Shown: piece by piece, positions 297-11,790 of the stretch
How the letters are laid out: every line of letters begins with the position of its first letter
How positions within the stretch are numbered: position 1 is the first letter of the stretch
Origin: an uncultured Phascolarctobacterium sp.
GTDB lineage: Bacteria > Bacillota > Negativicutes > Acidaminococcales > Acidaminococcaceae
NCBI GenBank assembly: GCA_949287345.1
Contig: CASEGD010000085.1
Location: forward strand, 1-12,295
Direction of reading: 5' to 3'
Length of the DNA stretch: 12,295 nucleotides
Made by a program: the position numbers and the translations under genes
Notes under the pieces: model-generated
What the model was told of the DNA's origin: nothing
Databases searched by the model: none
The model's input: only the letters and a program-made list of their open reading frames with translations

Positions 297-368
297 ACTG
301 ATATGGCCTTCTTTAATTTCGTCCAGTATTGATAACCATACTGATATGGCCTTCTTTAATTTCGTCCA
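283..368. repeat. Perfect 43-bp tandem duplication inside carB
   Basis: Positions 283-325 and 326-368 are identical 43-nt units (start gtattgataacc, end atttcgtcca) with no spacer. Because 43 is not a multiple of three, the second copy shifts the carB frame and creates a stop near 313. Loss of one copy by slippage or recombination would exactly restore the gene. Confidence 0.95.
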
Positions 369-2226
369 AAATGTTCGGGCTGCCTTCGCTTACTTTGGTG
401 GCTACCCTTACTTTTACGCCGTGGCTCTGCAAATATTCGGCAGTACCGCCGGTTGCGGTAATTTCATAGCCCAAATCGGCAAAACCGGCAGCAATTTCGC
501 AAGCTTCTTCCTTGTCCATATCGGCAACGGTAATCAAAATCGAACCTTCGTGCGGCACGTTAATGCCGGCAGCAATGCAGGCTTTGTACAGCGCGCGCGA
601 ATACTGGTAGTCGATTGCCATAACCTCGCCGGTGGATTTCATCTCCGGCCCAAGGGTGATATCGACGTTGCTCATCTTGTTAAAGGAGAATACCGGCGCT
701 TTAACCGCATAGTAGTCCGGGAACAACTGCAAGCCCGGGCGGAAGCCCTGCTCGCGGATACCGTGGCCCATTGCGCATTTAGTTGCAACGTCAACCATCT
801 GAATGGTAGTAACTTTGCTGAGGAACGGCACGGTACGGGAAGAACGCGGGTTAACCTCAATAACGAATACTTCGTTGTTGCGCACGATGTACTGAATGTT
901 GATCATGCCGTGAACTTCAAGGCCAATGGAAATTCTGTTGGTGTAGTCGATAATCGTTTTAATAACGGATTCCGACAGGGTGCGCGGCGGATATACGGCA
1001 ATGGAGTCGCCGGAGTGTACGCCTGCGCGTTCGATATGTTCCATAATGCCCGGAATCAATACGTCGGTGCCGTCGCAGATAGCGTCAACCTCAACTTCGG
1101 TGCCCTGCAAATAATGGTCAACCAGTACCGGGTGTTCATGCGATGCCTTAACGGCGTTCGTCATGTAGTATTTCAGTTCGTCGTCGTTGTAAACGATTTC
1201 CATAGCACGTCCGCCGAGTACGTAGGATGGGCGCACCATTACCGGGTAACCGACATCGGCAGCAGCTTTCAAAGCGCCTTCAGTATCGAATACGGTATGT
1301 CCTTTCGGGCGCGGAATGTTGCAGGAAGTCAGCAGCTCATCAAAACGTTCGCGGTCTTCGGCGCGGTCAATGCTTTCCACGCTGCTGCCCAAAATCTTAA
1401 TGCCTGCTTTTTCCAGCGGGCCTGCAAGGTTAATTGCAGTCTGTCCGCCGAACTGAACAATAACGCCTTCCGGTTTTTCTTTATCAAGGATGTTCAGTAC
1501 GTCTTCAATCGTCAGCGGCTCAAAATACAGGCGGTCGCTTGTGTCAAAGTCGGTACTTACTGTTTCAGGGTTGTTGTTGATGATGATGGTTTCGTAGCCA
1601 AGCTCTTTCAGCGCCCATACGGAATGTACGGAACAATAGTCGAACTCAACGCCCTGACCGATACGGATCGGGCCGGAGCCAAGTACGGCAACTTTCTTCT
1701 TGTCGCTTACCTCAACTTCGTCTTCTTCCGCATAGGTGGAATAATAATACGGAGTTGCAGCTTCAAACTCTGCGGCGCAGGTATCAACCATTTTATAAGT
1801 CGGGATAATACCCCAGCCTTTTCGCATTTCGCGTACTTCCTGCCAGGTTTTGCCAATGTAGCCCGCAATAACAACATCTGCAAAGCCCATCTTTTTGGCA
1901 GCGCGCATTAAATCTTCCGTCATAGGTTCGGATTTAATGCGTTTTTCCATGTTGACAATGTTCATAATCTTCTGTAAGAACCATTTGTCGATCATGGTAA
2001 TTTCATGCACTTCGTCAATCGTCACGCCGCGGCGGAAGGCTTCGGCAATAACAAACAGGCGCTGGTCATCAATCAAATGGATGCGGTCATGCACTTCTTC
2101 GTCGCTCAACGCTTTCAGTTCCGGCATTTCCAGATGGATAAGGCCGATTTCCAAAGAGCGTACTGCTTTCAACAAAGATGCTTCCAGTGTTCTTTCGATA
2201 GCCATAACCTCGCCGGTTGCTTTCAT
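313..2226 (-). pseudogene. carB: carB fragment 2: second ATP-grasp and most of the regulatory domain
   Basis: The CarB-like frame actually begins near 2337. The first ATG is at 2226 ([15 protein letters not shown]), an internal CarB motif with no convincing ribosome binding site. It contains the oligomerisation region, the second pre-ATP-grasp fold ([21 protein letters not shown]) and the carbamate-phosphorylating ATP-grasp domain ([32 protein letters not shown]). It also holds most of the C-terminal MGS-like allosteric domain ([15 protein letters not shown]). After MVINT the 43-bp duplication adds GRN and a stop. Confidence 0.8.
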
Positions 2227-2285
2227 CTGGGTGCCCAGAGTACGGTCGGCGGTAACAAATTTATCAAACGGCCAGCGCGGGAATT

Positions 2286-3263
2286 TTAAAACAACATAGT
2301 CCAGCGAAGGCTCGAAGCACGCCGTCGTCTTTTTGGTAACGCCGAAGAACGGCTTACACGCGGGTTAACTTCAATAACATAATAACGGTAGGAATTCGGG
2401 TCCAGCGCAAGCTGTACGTTGCAAGCGCCGCGCACGCCAAGCTCGCGAACAATGTCGATGGAAGCCTGACGCAGCATCTGAACTTCATGGTCGCTCAAAG
2501 TCTGTGCCGGTGCGGCAACGACGGAGTCACCGGTATGCACGCCAACCGGGTCAAGGTTTTCCATGGAGCAAACGGTAATGCAGTTGTCATCAGCGTCGCG
2601 CAGAACTTCATATTCAATTTCTTTCCAGCCGGCAACGCTGCGTTCAATCAGCGCCTGGCCGATAAGGCTGTAAAGCAAACCTTTGCTTACGATATCGTCC
2701 AGCTCGTCCATGTTTTCAGCAATGCCGCCGCCGGTGCCGCCCAAAGTATATGCCGGGCGTACAATCAGCGGGAAACCAACCTCGCGCGCAAATTCCTTAG
2801 CGGCGGATACGGTTTCAACAATCGTGCTTTCCGGAATCGGCTGGTTAATTTTTTCCATCGTTTCCTTGAACAGTTCGCGGTCTTCGGCGCGTTTAATGCT
2901 TTCAATCTGGGTGCCCAGCAGTTTAACATTGTATTCGCGCAAAATGCCCTGTTTGTCAAGATCAATGGCAAGGTTCAAACCAACCTGCCCGCCCAGGGTT
3001 GCCAGCATGGCGTCCGGGCGTTCGCGTTTAATAACGCTTTCCAAAAATTCTACGTTGACAGGCTCAACGTAAACGCGGTCGGCAATATGCACATCCGTCA
3101 TAATGGTAGCCGGGTTGCTGTTAACCAGTACAACCTCCAGCCCTTCTTCTTTTAAAGCGCGGCAGGCCTGTGTGCCGGAATAGTCAAATTCTGCCGCCTG
3201 CCCGATAATAATCGGGCCCGAACCGATAACCAGTACTTTTTTTACATTTTGCAGCTTCGGCAT
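2286..3263 (-). pseudogene. carB: carB fragment 1: first ATP-grasp domain
   Basis: This frame encodes 325 residues, of which the first 309 are CarB-like. It has the pre-ATP-grasp fold ([21 protein letters not shown] at about 10-30) and most of the carboxyphosphate ATP-grasp domain. Visible active-site residues are R129 (AEDRE), R169 ([10 protein letters not shown] with the following glycine-rich loop), and E298 and N300 in [14 protein letters not shown]. The final 16 residues (PKRRRR onward) are an out-of-frame tail ending at a TAA. The lesion removes the end of the domain and the start of the oligomerisation region, so this piece alone would not be an enzyme. Confidence 0.8.
2335..2340 (-). 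other. Deletion junction in carB
   Basis: Reading the minus strand, TCG GCG TTA (SSAL) runs straight into the GTTACCAAAAAGACG part of the later codons. GTTA fits both sides, so the breakpoint lies in a 4-nt shared sequence. From reading-frame arithmetic the missing DNA must be 1 modulo 3 in length. About 88 nt brings CarB to the expected size. Confidence 0.7.
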
Positions 3264-6562: not shown

Positions 6563-6599
6563 TGCAGAAACCTCCTGTATGATTATTTAAGCAAAACCT

Positions 6600-6613
6600 G
6601 CGGGCATGCCCGC
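6600..6613 (-). promoter_or_regulatory. 14-bp perfect GC palindrome in the pyrB leader
   Basis: GCGGGCATGCCCGC reads the same on both strands. It lies between the pyr attenuator terminator and the pyrB ribosome binding site. As RNA it could form a 5-bp hairpin with a CATG loop, followed by AGGTTTTGC. It could be a leader hairpin or a weak secondary terminator. No function is established. Confidence 0.4.
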
Positions 6614-6621
6614 CTACTTAC

Positions 6622-6664
6622 AAAAAATAAAAGCCTTCCGGTCCCCATGAGGATAGGAAGGCTT
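6622..6664 (-). terminator. Intrinsic terminator of the pyr attenuator
   Basis: On the minus strand AAGCCTTCC (6664-6656) pairs perfectly with GGAAGGCTT (6639-6631), followed by TTATTTTTTG. Position just after the PyrR-binding hairpin and before pyrB makes it the conditional terminator of the operon. Confidence 0.85.
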
Positions 6665-6688
6665 GTAGTACAAGTTACCTAAAAGTCT

Positions 6689-6720
6689 ACCTTACAGTCT
6701 CACAGGACCGATTTAAAGGT
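6689..6720 (-). promoter_or_regulatory. PyrR-binding RNA hairpin (anti-antiterminator)
   Basis: The minus strand reads ACCTTTAAATCGGTCCTGTGAG then ACTGTAAGGT. The outer stem ACCTT/AAGGT and inner stem CGGTC/GACTG surround a CTGTGA loop. This matches the conserved PyrR recognition element of Firmicutes pyr leaders. By analogy, PyrR with bound UMP stabilises this hairpin and allows the downstream terminator to form. When UMP is low an antiterminator forms instead; ACUUACCU just upstream can pair 7 of 8 with AGGUAACU near 6673-6680. pyrR itself is not in the window. Confidence 0.85.
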
Positions 6721-6836: not shown

Positions 6837-6864
6837 TTGACTTTTTGCTCACTTTTGCTATAAT
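6837..6864 (+). promoter_or_regulatory. Strong plus-strand promoter of a putative antitoxin RNA
   Basis: TTGACT (6837-6842), a 16-nt spacer and TATAAT (6859-6864) preceded by TGC, an extended -10. Transcription would start near A6871. No plus-strand gene with a ribosome binding site follows, so the promoter appears to serve a noncoding RNA. Confidence 0.8.
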
Positions 6865-6870
6865 ATTTAT

Positions 6871-6977
6871 AGAAACACAAATGGCTGCCGATAGACGGTC
6901 AGCCCCTAATTATATTGAATTACTAAAAAGTAAGTCGCCACAATTTCAGCAGGGCTGTGGCGGCTTACTTGTTTTTA
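6871..6977 (+). ncRNA. Putative antisense antitoxin RNA
   Basis: A transcript of about 107 nt is predicted from the start implied by the promoter to the end of the T-tract at 6977. It would fold as two hairpins. One is a GGCTG-CCG/CGG-CAGCC stem (6882-6905). The other is the 15-bp terminator stem (6928-6970). Its last roughly 56 nt are complementary to the 3' end of the peptide mRNA, including its stop codon, which would end near 6922. This 3'-end overlap, with convergent promoters and a shared terminator, is the layout of TxpA/RatA-type modules. The assignment is inferred from structure, and the RNA class is not recognised by sequence. Confidence 0.6.
6922..6977. terminator. Bidirectional intrinsic terminator between peptide gene and antisense RNA
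   Basis: AAGTAAGTCGCCACA (6928-6942) pairs with TGTGGCGGCTTACTT (6956-6970), 15 bp with one G-U. The plus strand ends in GTTTTTA (6971-6977) and the minus strand in TTTTTAG (6927-6921). The peptide stop codon (6965-6967) lies inside the stem. Confidence 0.88.
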
Positions 6978-7063
6978 TAGCGTCGTTCTCTCCCAAGGGC
7001 ATAGCCAAAGGAAAAGATTGTTACAGTGTAACCTATTACGGTTAACAATTCAATAACATTCAT
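6965..7063 (-). CDS. Putative type I toxin: 32-aa single-helix membrane peptide
   Basis: An ATG at 7063 follows a near-perfect AAGGAGGGGA ribosome binding site and opens a 32-codon frame ending TAA at 6965. The peptide starts MNVIELL, has one uninterrupted hydrophobic stretch (about residues 6-24, containing TIFSFGYALG), and ends in a basic tail (RERRYKNK). Short length, a single membrane helix with a positive C-terminus, its own promoter and a structured leader are all visible. So are a terminator overlapping the stop and an antisense RNA. Together these are the features of Bacillus/Enterococcus type I toxins (TxpA, BsrG, Fst, holin-like toxins). I do not recognise it as a member of a named family. 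It could instead be a harmless small membrane protein with antisense control. Confidence 0.68.
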   Translation of the reverse strand: MNVIELLTVIGYTVTIFSFGYALGRERRYKNK

Positions 7064-7178
7064 GCTATCCCCTCCTTCATAGTATTTCCGGCTTATGCCG
7101 GATTTCTATTTTATCGGAGGGTCACAGTCCCTCCGCGGGGAGGGCTAACCGCCTACCGTTTAATGGCAGCACATTTGC
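7064..7178 (-). promoter_or_regulatory. Structured leader of the peptide mRNA that can mask the ribosome binding site
   Basis: The predicted 115-nt leader carries four alternating blocks on the minus strand. They are A CCCTCC (7144-7139), B GGAGGG (7134-7129), C CCCTCC (7121-7116) and D GGAGGG (7075-7070), D being the Shine-Dalgarno. A:B forms a hairpin with a 4-nt loop. C:D hides the ribosome binding site and encloses a perfect CCGGC-ATAA-GCCGG hairpin (7101-7088) and an AUAG/CUAU helix. B:C, with a 7-nt loop, would free D. So A:B plus C:D is an off state and B:C an on state. Confidence 0.6.
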
Positions 7179-7181
7179 TTT

Positions 7182-7213
7182 ATTATAATAACAGAAAAAT
7201 ATAAACCTGTAAA
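7182..7213 (-). promoter_or_regulatory. Promoter of the small membrane peptide gene
   Basis: Minus-strand TTTACA (7213-7208), 17 nt, then TATTAT (7190-7185). A TATAAT (7187-7182) overlaps it at a 20-nt spacing. A start near 7178 gives a leader of about 115 nt. Confidence 0.6.
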
Positions 7214-7260: not shown

Positions 7261-7611
7261 TTATTTCTTATCGGTTACACTCTTACCGTTAACGATAAGT
7301 GAAATTGAAGGCTGGCTGATATTGAACAAATTTCCGAGGAAGATTTGTGATATTCCTTCTTCCTTATATAACCGTAATATTTCGGCGTTGCGTTCCGCGC
7401 GAGTCTTAAAAGGATGGATTTGTATTTCTTCGTGGTCGATTTTATAGCCGTAATCACGCACAACGATAATTTTGCGGGTGTTGTCGGTGTTACGCACCTT
7501 TATTTCCCATGTCTGGATGCCGCTTTTGCTGCGAGGATTATATAAACAAAATTCGGCTTCGGCGTTCCCGCAGATTTGGTTTAAGAATTTTGGGTTTAGT
7601 TCTGTGTTCAT
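7261..7611 (-). CDS. Small helix-turn-helix protein of unknown function
   Basis: A 116-aa soluble protein with no signal or membrane segment. Residues about 73-109 (RNAEILRLYKEEGISQIFLG followed by NLFNISQPSISLIVNGK) form a clear helix-turn-helix. They have a resolvase/sigma-region-4-like look, in which NISQPSISLIV would be the recognition helix. The N-terminal 70 residues (WEIKVRNTDNTRKIIVVRDYG) look like a small beta-rich domain I cannot assign. A GAGGT site lies 8 nt before the ATG, and a strong terminator follows at once, so it appears to be a single-gene unit. I found no convincing promoter. It lies between the peptide module and a repeat-rich stretch. It could be a DNA-binding regulator or a remnant of a mobile element. 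Confidence 0.65.
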   Translation of the reverse strand: MNTELNPKFLNQICGNAEAEFCLYNPRSKSGIQTWEIKVRNTDNTRKIIVVRDYGYKIDHEEIQIHPFKTRAERNAEILRLYKEEGISQIFLGNLFNISQPSISLIVNGKSVTDKK

Positions 7612-8369: not shown

Positions 8370-11300
8370 TTAGAACGTCCACTGTACACCTGCGTTAATC
8401 TGGTAGGTTTCGTCGTTGTCGTTGCCGAAGGATTTTTCAAAATCCATAAATGCATAGCTACTATTGCTAAGAGCCGTTGCAAAACCGAAGCCTACATCAT
8501 ACCATGTGCCTTTGTTTTCGTATTCTTCACGCAAAGTGCCGGTAATATCCGTCGCCGTTATATCCTGGTCGCCCAAAAATTCGTGCAGCAGGTCGGCTTT
8601 AATATAAACAGTGCTGCTTTCGTTAAGGTCACGCCCAAGGCGGAAGCCCGCGCGCCCGATTAAGCTGTTAATGCCGTCAAGGCTTACTTTGGTGTCCTGG
8701 CTTGTTACATAATCCGCACCCGTTACGCGCGCAAATTGCAGCTGTGCCTGCGGCTCAAAGTACCAGCCGCCGCCCATGTCGTTCTTTTTGCCGTATTCCG
8801 CGCTGGCGCTGAACACATTGTTGCTGTAATCGCCGGTAATTTTTTCTCCGGTTGTGCGTGCCATAATGTCAAAGTCGTTTTCTAAATGTCCCCATTTTAA
8901 CACATAATCGGTGTAATGGCCTTTGTCGCCCAGCCAGGTGTCATACAGCCACAGACCGTAGCGTTTTACATCGCCATCGCCCGCAATGCCGGTGTATTCC
9001 GCCTTGCCGTCCATGTAGTCAATAGCCATGCCTACGCGGCGTTCGCCGTTGTCGCAGTCCTGCTTAACATCGTAACCCATTTCGTACATGGTGTTCTGGC
9101 TTCTAAATGCGTCGTCCTTACCGATTCTGTCGTGGCGGATACGCACCCACATGCCCTGTTCATCTTCGGGGCTGATGTAGCGTGCTTCGCCAAGGCGTTT
9201 ATTCAATCTATCCATGTAGATAGCGTTGTTATAGTTTACTTTGCTCATGTTAATGATGGTTTTAGCAGCGTCGGATTTATTTTCTTCCGTTACCTTATTT
9301 CTTACAAGGTAAACATTTTGCGCTCCGTCAACACTGCCATAAACAGAGTCTACATAATCCGTGCCCGGCTTGGCTTCGCTTTCGGTAAATTCCGCGCCGC
9401 CGTTATAAGCGTGGTCATCATCTTTTTCGGTATCGGTTTTATAATCTACATATTCAACGTCAAAATCTACGTTAAAAATGCCTGCGTCGTTAATGCGGGT
9501 GCTTCTGCCAAAGGTTGCCGTGCCGTCCGTAACATTACCAAAACCTTCACCGGCTTTTGCCACCGTTGCAAAACGGATTCTGTCACCTTCGCCCATACTG
9601 CTTAAAACTTCTTCGCGGTTGTTAATTTGCAAAGTCTGCGCATCACTGGTGCCGTCAGCAACATAAAGCATATCGCTTGTGCCAAGCTCGCCCGGTTTAA
9701 GGTTTACAATAAAGGTATTATTGCCGCTTACCTTGCCAATGTGTACAGCGTCGCTGCCTTCTGCTTTGGTTAAATCCACAACGCCGTTGCCGTTAAGCTC
9801 GCTAATCCAGCTCTGGCTGGTTACGTTCCACGTTGCGCCCTGCGCAAGGTTTACGCTTACATCGCCGCTTGCAGCAATTTCATGGCTGAATTTGGGGTTA
9901 AACTGTGCTTCGTGCTTATTTGCCCAATCATCCAAATCAGCGTCCTGATAGTCGTCCGCACGGCCTGTCCATGTACTGCCGCTTGTTAAGTTAATGCTTA
10001 ATTTGCCACCGTTGGCGGAAAGTGCGTCGCCTGTTAATTTAAGCGTGCCTGCGTTATTACGGGTGCTTAAAGTGCTGATACCGGTTTCTGCATTGCCAAT
10101 GGTAATGTTGCCGCCGTAACCGCTGATAATATCGCCGGTAATATTACTGCCTACGCCATAGTTAAGGTTGATGTTGTTGGTGCCGCCTAACGGATTTTCA
10201 AAATCGGCACTTTCTTCATTCCAACCTTCCGTGCCTGCTACAACGGCAATATCCTGCCCACCGGTAGTGCTGATAGTTGTTGTGCCGTTAATTGTAATAT
10301 TGCCGCCAATTGTTGACCAAAGCCCGTAAACTTTAGAACCTTCTGCCGCGCCGCTTGCATTTGCAGAAATATTCGCCGCGCCGTTAACAGTAACATTACC
10401 GCCACTTGTTTTAATACCAACATTTTCAACAGTACCACCAGTTGAATTAGTTATAATATCTATATCAGCAGTATTAACAATATCATTACCATAAGTAAAT
10501 AAATAACCTTCTGCCATTTCATTACTAATGGTTTTAATACCTGCTACACTCACGTTACCATTACTGTTTGCAGTTACATTAACAGAACTTTTTTTAGCAA
10601 CTTCAATTAAAGTATTTGCATTTGATTTATAGGAACTTCCTATAATACCCGTAGCTTCTACTGCTGCATCTTGTTCGTTTGTTGCAACAACAGTTATATC
10701 TGCACTTTTTACAGCAATAACGTTTGTAACATTCTTTTTACTACTAACCACATTTAAACCTTGTGCCTTACTCAACGTATAGTAATCACTGCTGCCCGCT
10801 GAAGTAGCTTCTGCCTTAATAATTACGTCACCGGCAGCAATAATATTATAAGCAGTATTCTCACTTTTTTCACCTGTTTGAGCCAAATCTATTCCTGTTG
10901 CCGTAGCTTCACTATCGTTATTTTGGGAAGTATTAGTTGCTGTTACGTTAATTTCTACACTACCTAAATTTTTTACTGTATCTTTCAAATTATCAACATC
11001 ATTAAATTTTTCAAAATCACTGTCATTATAATTACCATGATAGCCTAAAATTATTTTATGATTATTGCCAGATGCATTTCCATCCATATGTACACCAGTA
11101 AGTCTATTATATAAACCAAGATCTTTATTTATTATACTTGTATTTGTTATAATGCCTGTACCATATACTAACAAATTATCTTCATCACCCGAAATATTGC
11201 CGCCATATAAATTAATGGCATGAATATCATAACTGTTATCAGTATTTGTTAAAGTGATATTTCCATTACCTAAATAAATTTTATTATTCGTACCATTCAA

Positions 11301-11732
11301 TTGAACTGCACTATTACCACCTATTATTTCAAGATTAGCACCTTCACGCATATCCAGCATAGAATTTGAACCTTTTGTTGATATTCCGTAAAGTACATCT
11401 GGATCAAATTTTTCTTCACCTTTCTGCATTTTTATATCTATTGCACCAGAAATGACAATATTTTCATTTTCAGCATTAATGCCAATAGTATTAAAATTCA
11501 ATATTTGAGTGGTATTATTATAATAAGTTTTTAAATCAAGTACTGCACCATCACCTAAAGTATATTTATAAGTATTTGTATCTTTGTCATAAGTTTTTTG
11601 TGATTCAGTATATTTATCATCAGCACCGCTTATTGCTTCCGTATATATTGTTTCAGCCTGCGCCATACCATACGGCAGCATTAACAGCACGCTTAAAGTT
11701 ACCGCCTTTGCTAAAGTTTTCTTGGTCATCAT
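8370..11732 (-). CDS. Type V autotransporter with C-terminal outer-membrane beta-barrel
   Basis: A 1120-aa surface protein. Residues 1-26 are a Sec signal peptide (MMTKKTLAK, hydrophobic core, cleavage at AQA|ET). Residues about 27-830 are a Ser/Thr/Asn-rich passenger with recurring GGN-T-NG strand motifs (GGNVTVNGAANISANASG, GGNITINGTTTIS, GGNITIGN), as in parallel beta-helices. Residues about 860-1120 form the autotransporter barrel, opening with GMWVRIRHDRIGKDDAF. It shows alternating strands (YGLWLYDTW, WYFEPQAQLQFARV, GFRLGRDL) and ends in the aromatic outer-membrane signal VQWTF. The start at 11732 (or the next ATG, 11729) follows AAAGGAG; an upstream in-frame ATG at 11771 lacks such a site. 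The cargo function (adhesin or other) is not recognisable, and no protease triad is evident. DNA encoding residues about 35-430 is much more AT-rich than the rest. Confidence 0.93.
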   Translation of the reverse strand: MMTKKTLAKAVTLSVLLMLPYGMAQAETIYTEAISGADDKYTESQKTYDKDTNTYKYTLGDGAVLDLKTYYNNTTQILNFNTIGINAENENIVISGAIDIKMQKGEEKFDPDVLYGISTKGSNSMLDMREGANLEIIGGNSAVQLNGTNNKIYLGNGNITLTNTDNSYDIHAINLYGGNISGDEDNLLVYGTGIITNTSIINKDLGLYNRLTGVHMDGNASGNNHKIILGYHGNYNDSDFEKFNDVDNLKDTVKNLGSVEINVTATNTSQNNDSEATATGIDLAQTGEKSENTAYNIIAAGDVIIKAEATSAGSSDYYTLSKAQGLNVVSSKKNVTNVIAVKSADITVVATNEQDAAVEATGIIGSSYKSNANTLIEVAKKSSVNVTANSNGNVSVAGIKTISNEMAEGYLFTYGNDIVNTADIDIITNSTGGTVENVGIKTSGGNVTVNGAANISANASGAAEGSKVYGLWSTIGGNITINGTTTISTTGGQDIAVVAGTEGWNEESADFENPLGGTNNINLNYGVGSNITGDIISGYGGNITIGNAETGISTLSTRNNAGTLKLTGDALSANGGKLSINLTSGSTWTGRADDYQDADLDDWANKHEAQFNPKFSHEIAASGDVSVNLAQGATWNVTSQSWISELNGNGVVDLTKAEGSDAVHIGKVSGNNTFIVNLKPGELGTSDMLYVADGTSDAQTLQINNREEVLSSMGEGDRIRFATVAKAGEGFGNVTDGTATFGRSTRINDAGIFNVDFDVEYVDYKTDTEKDDDHAYNGGAEFTESEAKPGTDYVDSVYGSVDGAQNVYLVRNKVTEENKSDAAKTIINMSKVNYNNAIYMDRLNKRLGEARYISPEDEQGMWVRIRHDRIGKDDAFRSQNTMYEMGYDVKQDCDNGERRVGMAIDYMDGKAEYTGIAGDGDVKRYGLWLYDTWLGDKGHYTDYVLKWGHLENDFDIMARTTGEKITGDYSNNVFSASAEYGKKNDMGGGWYFEPQAQLQFARVTGADYVTSQDTKVSLDGINSLIGRAGFRLGRDLNESSTVYIKADLLHEFLGDQDITATDITGTLREEYENKGTWYDVGFGFATALSNSSYAFMDFEKSFGNDNDETYQINAGVQWTF

Positions 11733-11737
11733 AATCG

Positions 11738-11759
11738 CTCCTTTGCTTTTTGCTTTTTG
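11738..11759 (-). repeat. Heptamer repeat just upstream of the autotransporter ribosome binding site
   Basis: The minus strand reads GCAAAAAGCAAAAAGCAAAG then GAG: two and a half GCAAAAA units running into the Shine-Dalgarno. It is short, and any role in leader-length variation is speculative. Confidence 0.45.
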
Positions 11760-11790
11760 CATTTTATACAAATGCAGTTTATGTAAAACT

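Follow-up and report, generated by a model that had tools for sequence, protein, structure and literature searches.

A multi-copy family of candidate type I toxin-antitoxin modules with a predicted Shine-Dalgarno-masking leader, found beside pyrB in Phascolarctobacterium and in distant relatives

The window analysed here is a 12,295-nucleotide stretch of a contig from an uncultured Phascolarctobacterium sp. (CASEGD010000085.1), and upstream of its pyrB gene two predicted transcription units converge. The minus strand encodes at 7063-6965 the 32-residue peptide MNVIELLTVIGYTVTIFSFGYALGRERRYKNK, which has one membrane helix and a basic tail, as a preliminary description of this DNA had reported. 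The promoter proposed there for the peptide mRNA was likewise found (TTTACA-17-TG.TATTAT, 7213-7185, matching the consensus at 10 of 12 positions), as was the stronger extended -10 promoter on the plus strand (TTGACT-16-TG.TATAAT, 6837-6864, 11 of 12), and both are kept in most of the other modules. The first would give a toxin mRNA running from 7178 to 6921 and the second a predicted antisense RNA antitoxin of ~110 nt at 6871-6981, a prediction drawn from conservation and a 5' motif; the ends of both are estimates. At the sequence level the short plus-strand RNA has its promoter, 5' hairpin and terminator where the earlier account placed them. In its predicted fold the conserved 5' hairpin (6884-6904, plus strand), similar by motif and alignment to the start of the toxin mRNA, is followed by a weak hairpin in the middle and then by the 15-bp stem of a bidirectional terminator. 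This terminator (6928-6970, both strands; stem arms 6928-6942 and 6956-6970) is common to both transcripts, again as described, and the stop codon of the peptide (6967-6965) lies inside its stem. An antisense overlap of about 56 nt had been proposed; the overlap and its inclusion of the stop codon are borne out, and its length comes to ~61 nt with the estimated transcript ends. A promoter scan over 1.4 kb gave 8 promoter-like sites against 3.6 ± 2.0 in shuffled sequence, which is weak by itself, so that it is conservation in relatives that raises the layout above chance.

Directly upstream of this module copy lies an HTH-like gene of 116 aa (7261-7611, minus strand). Six genomes of the genus contain 56 matches to it, 5-12 in each, and by manual count it adjoins a module or an antisense remnant in 12 of the 56; it was rejected as a third component on account of this inconstant linkage. 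The protein database yields 123 homologues of the gene, with one precomputed Pfam domain among the 120 listed. On the other side of the module, the pyrB leader (6563-6720, minus strand), with a hairpin rich in GC and a stretch of conserved sequence, resembles an attenuator of the PyrR type; no Rfam family reached its gathering cut-off there. The minus-strand region read as carB (313-3263) holds one ORF at 313-2226 and another at 2286-3263, a split that a disrupted frame or an error of the draft assembly would explain. A 1133-aa ORF at 8370-11771 (minus strand) has a signal-like start and an autotransporter-like C-terminal barrel, labels that come from reading the sequence.

The preliminary description had envisaged a single module; what we found is a multi-copy family. 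The 1.46-Mb genome (207 contigs) holds 9 DNA matches to the 377-bp module, that of the window included: near-complete paralogues on contigs C9, C64, C107 and C66, a copy on C28 with a different upstream region, remnants on C94 and C102 that lack much or all of the toxin, and a contig-end piece on C98. Among paralogues and genus relatives the module is conserved from one -35 box to the other, and the promoter-to-promoter layout recurs in paralogues and distant relatives. The peptide was matched in all six genus genomes, 2-10 times in each and 39 times in total (one match partial), and all 38 full matches are open frames with a start and a stop codon and a purine-rich stretch before the start. 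Homologues with the frame lost and the flanking DNA kept, named beforehand as one of two cases that would speak against the proposal, are absent from the genus, where the frame is kept while the terminator loop and flanks diverge. The median dN/dS was 0.33, with 99.6% of values below 1, over 452 pairs from 35 genus ORFs that are mostly paralogues (median dS 0.92) and whose 3' ends overlap the antisense RNA; the set omits pairs beyond the dS or dN limits and three ORFs in which no leader was recognised.

Beyond the genus, the family has 59 genomes in 18 genera, of which 11 genomes and 3 genera gave a peptide match (48 genomes without one). R1, a covariance model of the leader built from 48 sequences, with matches accepted to an E-value of 1e-4 (E-values being rough), found 16 genomes of the same family, 47 of 380 genomes and 15 of 102 genera of the class, and 7 of 398 genomes in an even sample of the phylum, three of these outside the class. 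In a second family of the phylum, that of one of these three genomes and, at a guess from its size, perhaps Lachnospiraceae, R1 matched 46 of 200 genomes, each from a different genus. Peptides were inspected at 21 loci of the class and 19 outside it; all 19 of the latter give a peptide with G-[YF]-x-x-G, a motif also used to choose the frame, and at one of them (L154) the tail is extended. Most of 30 loci in named relatives come from Phascolarctobacterium, several of them in genomes that coincide with G001-G005; the other records bear the names Selenomonadaceae, Anaerovibrio, Veillonellaceae, Eubacterium, Eubacteriales and Clostridia, and the last of these (L083), nearly identical to a genus copy, may be misbinned. 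Phage and plasmid records gave no match to the module. A first pattern scan of viral contigs found nothing, and a second gave two matches, one chance-like (L145) and one on a 5.9-kb viral contig (L144) that carries a complete-looking module of the out-of-class type; a phage or plasmid origin was rejected, with no match among those records and this single viral contig.

The peptide set numbers 89 and contains one wrong-frame entry (L100, a duplicate of L078), which also enters the masking, promoter, terminator, hydropathy and leader counts below. The 89 peptides have a hydrophobic N-terminal part, at least 80 of them have a G-Y-x-x-G tail, and 77 are 27-34 aa long. The best 19-residue hydropathy has a median of 1.67 over 70 modules, of which 69 reach 1.3 and 48 reach 1.6, and the last nine residues carry a net positive charge in 68 of the 70. 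The peptide is thus small and hydrophobic with a charged tail, a recognised feature of type I toxins. The preliminary description had not recognised its sequence, and library searches agree: among 27 members compared with all Pfam and NCBIfam models nothing rose above cut-off, the best PHROGs match had an E-value of 0.061, and no PDB chain matched.

Both promoters are widely kept, matching the consensus at 9 or more of 12 positions in 59 of 70 modules for the mRNA and in 58 for the antisense RNA, and within the genus the antisense promoter reads TTGACT-16-TG.TATAAT in 33 of 35. The antisense 5' motif has 47 sites in the six genus genomes, against 0 for a reversed-pattern control. Outside the class the motif was found at 17 of 19 loci, the exceptions being L140, where a variant is seen by eye, and L160, which has none. 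It is a strict test, matching 49 of the other 70 modules, and by local alignment a corresponding antisense 5' end was judged present in all but two of the 70. Measured against shuffled sequence, the terminator has a median z-score of -4.3, with values under -2 in 64 of 70 modules, and T-rich stretches flank it on both sides in 49 of 70. In 41 of 70 modules the stop codon is fully paired within it (TAA/TTA 28, TAG/CTA 9, TGA/TCA 3, TAG/CTG 1). Every paired stop type meets its complement in the terminator arm, one G-U case excepted, and comparison shows the predicted arm to covary with the stop codon. At the level of sequence, then, a predicted antisense gene overlaps the toxin mRNA. Predicted pairing of the overlap, computed in two genomes with five and nine modules that have a recognised leader, is -107 to -126 kcal/mol with the cognate mRNA, complementary by construction, and -24 to -79 kcal/mol with paralogous mRNAs; because of this weaker predicted pairing, the paralogues look partly insulated from one another. 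Comparison further shows that the candidate toxin frame, the leader, both predicted promoters and the predicted terminator are kept as one unit, and the convergent promoters and common terminator, whose conservation with the peptide had been set as a check on the proposal, accompany it in other families and outside the class.

The 5' leader of the toxin mRNA (7064-7178, minus strand; a match to R1) carries four alternating segments, CCCUCC, GGAGGG, CCCUCC and GGAGGG. Segment 1 lies at 7139-7144, segments 2 and 3 form the hairpin CGGAGGG-ACUGUGA-CCCUCCG at 7115-7135, with a covarying stem and a near-invariant loop, and segment 4 is the Shine-Dalgarno sequence AAGGAGGGG itself at 7069-7077, all on the minus strand. 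The ribosome binding site had been called very strong; the sequence is indeed present, but in the predicted folds the leader masks it, its GGAGGG core having an unpaired probability of 0.009. The stem of segments 2 and 3 occurs as CGGAGGG/CCCUCCG (47 leaders), CAGAGGG/CCCUCUG (10), CGGAGGG/CCCUUCG with one G-U pair (8), CGAAGGG/CCCUUCG (3) and others. Of 89 leaders examined, 83 have a loop that can be recognised, and it reads ACUGUGA in 74 of these; the AUAGAAA after it is present in 70 of the 89. Both are kept across classes though unpaired in the predicted hairpin. A run of at least 6 pairs between segment 3 and the Shine-Dalgarno sequence is possible in 74 of 83 leaders, and the mean count drops to 12.6 when segment 3 is shuffled; this is a weaker result than covariation because the ribosome already fixes the Shine-Dalgarno sequence.

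Folds of single sequences place the Shine-Dalgarno sequence either in a stem of segments 3 and 4 or in one of segments 1 and 4, and the consensus fold of the alignment, which is poor at this site, forms the stem of segments 2 and 3 with the site open. Among 67 distinct leaders the unpaired probability of the core is below 0.1 in 57 (10 miss this threshold), with a median of 0.011 against 0.285 in shuffles, and 66 of the 67 lie below their own shuffle mean; the choice of site is doubtful for L100, L111, L120 and L121. Four leaders with a GAAGGU-type site (G000_C66, G004_C18, G002_C28 and L083) also fall below 0.1, yet about half of their own shuffles (16-24 of 40) are masked at least as well. 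Outside the class the value is below 0.1 at 10 of 19 loci, several of the sites being imperfectly chosen where in-frame start codons lie upstream. The primary transcript is therefore predicted by these folds to be non-translatable. Activation by 5' truncation was rejected as an explanation, since removal of segment 1 is predicted to open the site above 0.5 in only 11 of 67 leaders, and the activation step is on this account a guess. A leader stretch, RRCGGUUA, could pair with the post-stop sequence UAACCGCC at 7 or more of 8 positions in 57 of 67 modules, against 21 in shuffled controls; this pairing is mostly invariant, the terminator also accounts for it and one compensatory case (L116) was seen, so that we treat the predicted interaction as a lead. 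Rfam gave no gathering match for the leader in the window, at 19 distant loci (two tRNAs only) or at 4 further loci, and its best match in the module by E-value was NrrF, at 18.8 bits against a cut-off of 60.

The 5' ends of the mRNA and the antisense RNA align better within modules than between them (13.75 versus 9.77, 0 of 10000 permutations), as judged on 32 representatives of 67 modules, uncorrected for descent; the 67 are the 70 less three, dropped as duplicate loci or for want of a located antisense end. A cognate strictly outscores all other antisense RNAs in only 8 of the 32, some are outscored by many, and in G023 one module aligns slightly better to the antisense RNA of a sister. In three genomes (G022, G023 and G035) the 5' ends differ from module to module within one genome, that of the antisense RNA mostly tracking its own mRNA or the nearest sister. 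Cognate recognition between the two 5' ends is not supported, the predicted 5'-5' duplexes being no better for cognates (-22.1 kcal/mol) than for non-cognates (-22.0 kcal/mol, p 0.36). Their likeness may come from gene conversion of the inverted ends or from some binding factor.

The genus also records how the modules decay. Matched by hand, 37 of the 38 full toxin ORFs adjoin the antisense 5' motif, and 10 of the 47 motif sites lack a full toxin ORF. Six independent-looking loci have lost all or part of the toxin and retain a normal antisense promoter and the terminator: C94 and C102 (L007 and L008), L124, L125, L128 (with its likely orthologue L126) and L130. At L127 the antisense promoter has decayed, and L129 and L131 reach contig ends. 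Remnants of the toxin promoter lie beyond the antisense terminator at L124, L126, L128, C94 and C102. The sole toxin without an antisense gene, G005:C24, is also without the usual leader, and its helix has an L to S change relative to C28. Addiction to the antitoxin would leave such an asymmetry, with toxins going before antisense genes, though the raw counts are small (six antisense-only loci against one of the reverse kind).

Taken together, the module of the window probably belongs to a new, chromosomal family of type I toxin-antitoxin systems, in which the plus-strand RNA most likely keeps the candidate toxin peptide off. Under this model the minus-strand mRNA would encode a single-helix membrane peptide, and the plus-strand RNA, with the better promoter, would be the antitoxin. 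The full-length mRNA would be translationally silent, its leader hiding the Shine-Dalgarno sequence in two mutually exclusive folds (segments 1:2 with 3:4, or 2:3 with 1:4). The antisense RNA would pair with the last ~60 nt of its cognate mRNA, terminator loops first, and the duplex would be degraded or blocked. Were the supply of antisense RNA to fall, the mRNA would persist and a processed or refolded form could be translated, the peptide then inserting in the membrane and stopping growth. An extension of this model, conceivable and on balance unlikely, is that the toxin leader is a sensor, a factor (protein, RNase or RNA) recognising the loop or the mirrored 5' hairpins and so releasing the toxin. 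It is suggested by the retention of ACUGUGA and AUAGAAA from Negativicutes to the second large family, beyond what masking would need; if it held, release might follow phage attack, for example, and the modules would form a new class of RNA-switched type I systems.

Purifying selection, a membrane helix and an antisense RNA would be equally compatible with a regulated, non-toxic small membrane peptide silenced by the antisense RNA, such as a modulator of a membrane complex. A likeness to the transmembrane stretch of the Pfam family Proton_antipo_N, found below threshold in 8 of 27 members (best E-value 0.00056; in a further search 0.00025, its 21.3 bits falling short of the 24.5 cut-off), also points that way, and we read it as generic transmembrane similarity. 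We consider this alternative improbable, because 2-10 copies per genus genome, a patchy presence, the predicted two-way masking and the loss of toxins before antisense genes fit addiction modules better.

Far less probable still is a MITE-like repeat with promoters at its ends by chance and the ORF and RNA as passengers. Such an element would explain a multi-copy, promoter-to-promoter unit with similar inverted 5' ends, and also the variation at the pyrB locus, where the module is present in G004 and G005 and absent from G002 and G003 (G001 left out). Frame, start and stop are kept as the DNA diverges, however, stop codon and terminator covary, the leader persists in genomes that are only very distantly related, and comparison of the flanks at the pyrB locus, the one locus compared in this way, showed no clean empty site. 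That the open frame and the promoter matches are accidental, as a lone 32-aa frame with promoter hits in AT-rich intergenic DNA might by itself suggest, is refuted for practical purposes by conservation in six of six genus genomes and far beyond.

If the toxin-antitoxin reading is right, it adds a widely distributed RNA-regulated family to common gut and rumen Firmicutes, and the presence of similar modules in one genome, antisense-only remnants and a two-state leader would make cross-talk, insulation and activation testable. Annotation pipelines are likely to miss both peptide and RNA, neither having a library match above cut-off. Relative to Rfam, Pfam, NCBIfam, PHROGs and PDB the family is new. 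For Clostridium species, PMC6563280 mentions an earlier in silico screen with type I candidates that were unstudied. In the titles and opening abstract lines of open-licence literature we found no type I module of this kind described for Negativicutes, Phascolarctobacterium, Selenomonas or Lachnospiraceae.

Among known systems, TxpA/RatA and BsrG/SR4 of Bacillus subtilis, with which the module had been likened, consist of convergent genes that overlap at their 3' ends and encode a small membrane peptide. The likeness holds for the layout, a convergent toxin and antitoxin with a 3' overlap, whereas leader masking and repeats make Fst/par the closest analogue. Unlike in the B. subtilis pairs, one terminator ends both RNAs of the module, and comparison with the library models of Pfam, NCBIfam and PHROGs did not place the peptide in the TxpA/BsrG family. 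The B. subtilis modules, families named in PMC6563280, are located in prophages according to that paper, in contrast to the present family with no matching phage or plasmid record and a single viral contig. The CD2517.1-RCd8 type of Clostridioides difficile shares the convergent arrangement and small hydrophobic peptide, and has a lysine-rich tail (PMC6563280); its three characterised toxins named there have 50-53 aa, against 27-34 aa in 77 of the 89 module peptides.

A non-translatable primary transcript is given as a hallmark of type I loci in PMC6733600, where masking in aapA3 of Helicobacter pylori is attributed to a long-distance 5'-3' interaction and successive metastable hairpins. The module is predicted to share with aapA3/IsoA3 a primary mRNA kept silent by alternative hairpins that mask the Shine-Dalgarno sequence, but its competing segments all lie within the leader, where aapA3 uses the 5'-3' interaction. 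SymE is named in PMC11318856.

The closest parallel is with Fst/par of pAD1, as described in PMC7472228. Both have convergent promoters, a common bidirectional terminator, a toxin or candidate toxin with a charged tail (~33 aa for Fst), repeats read by both RNAs and a 5' structure that masks the Shine-Dalgarno sequence, by prediction in the case of the module, and in par the interaction initiates at the terminator loops. The peptides differ, Fst carrying a PXXXG motif where proline is rare in the helix of the module, with one inside residues 4-24 in 3 of the 89 peptides; 27 members remained below cut-off against all Pfam and NCBIfam models, which gives no membership of the Fst family. The repeats differ too, being direct in par (DRa and DRb) and inverted, at both 5' ends, in the module, where complementarity of the DRa/DRb type was not found and the predicted 5'-5' duplexes are not cognate-specific. 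The module would thus work like par in its layout without being a par member in sequence, and it is distinguished from par by its leader of four alternating segments with the ACUGUGA-loop hairpin.
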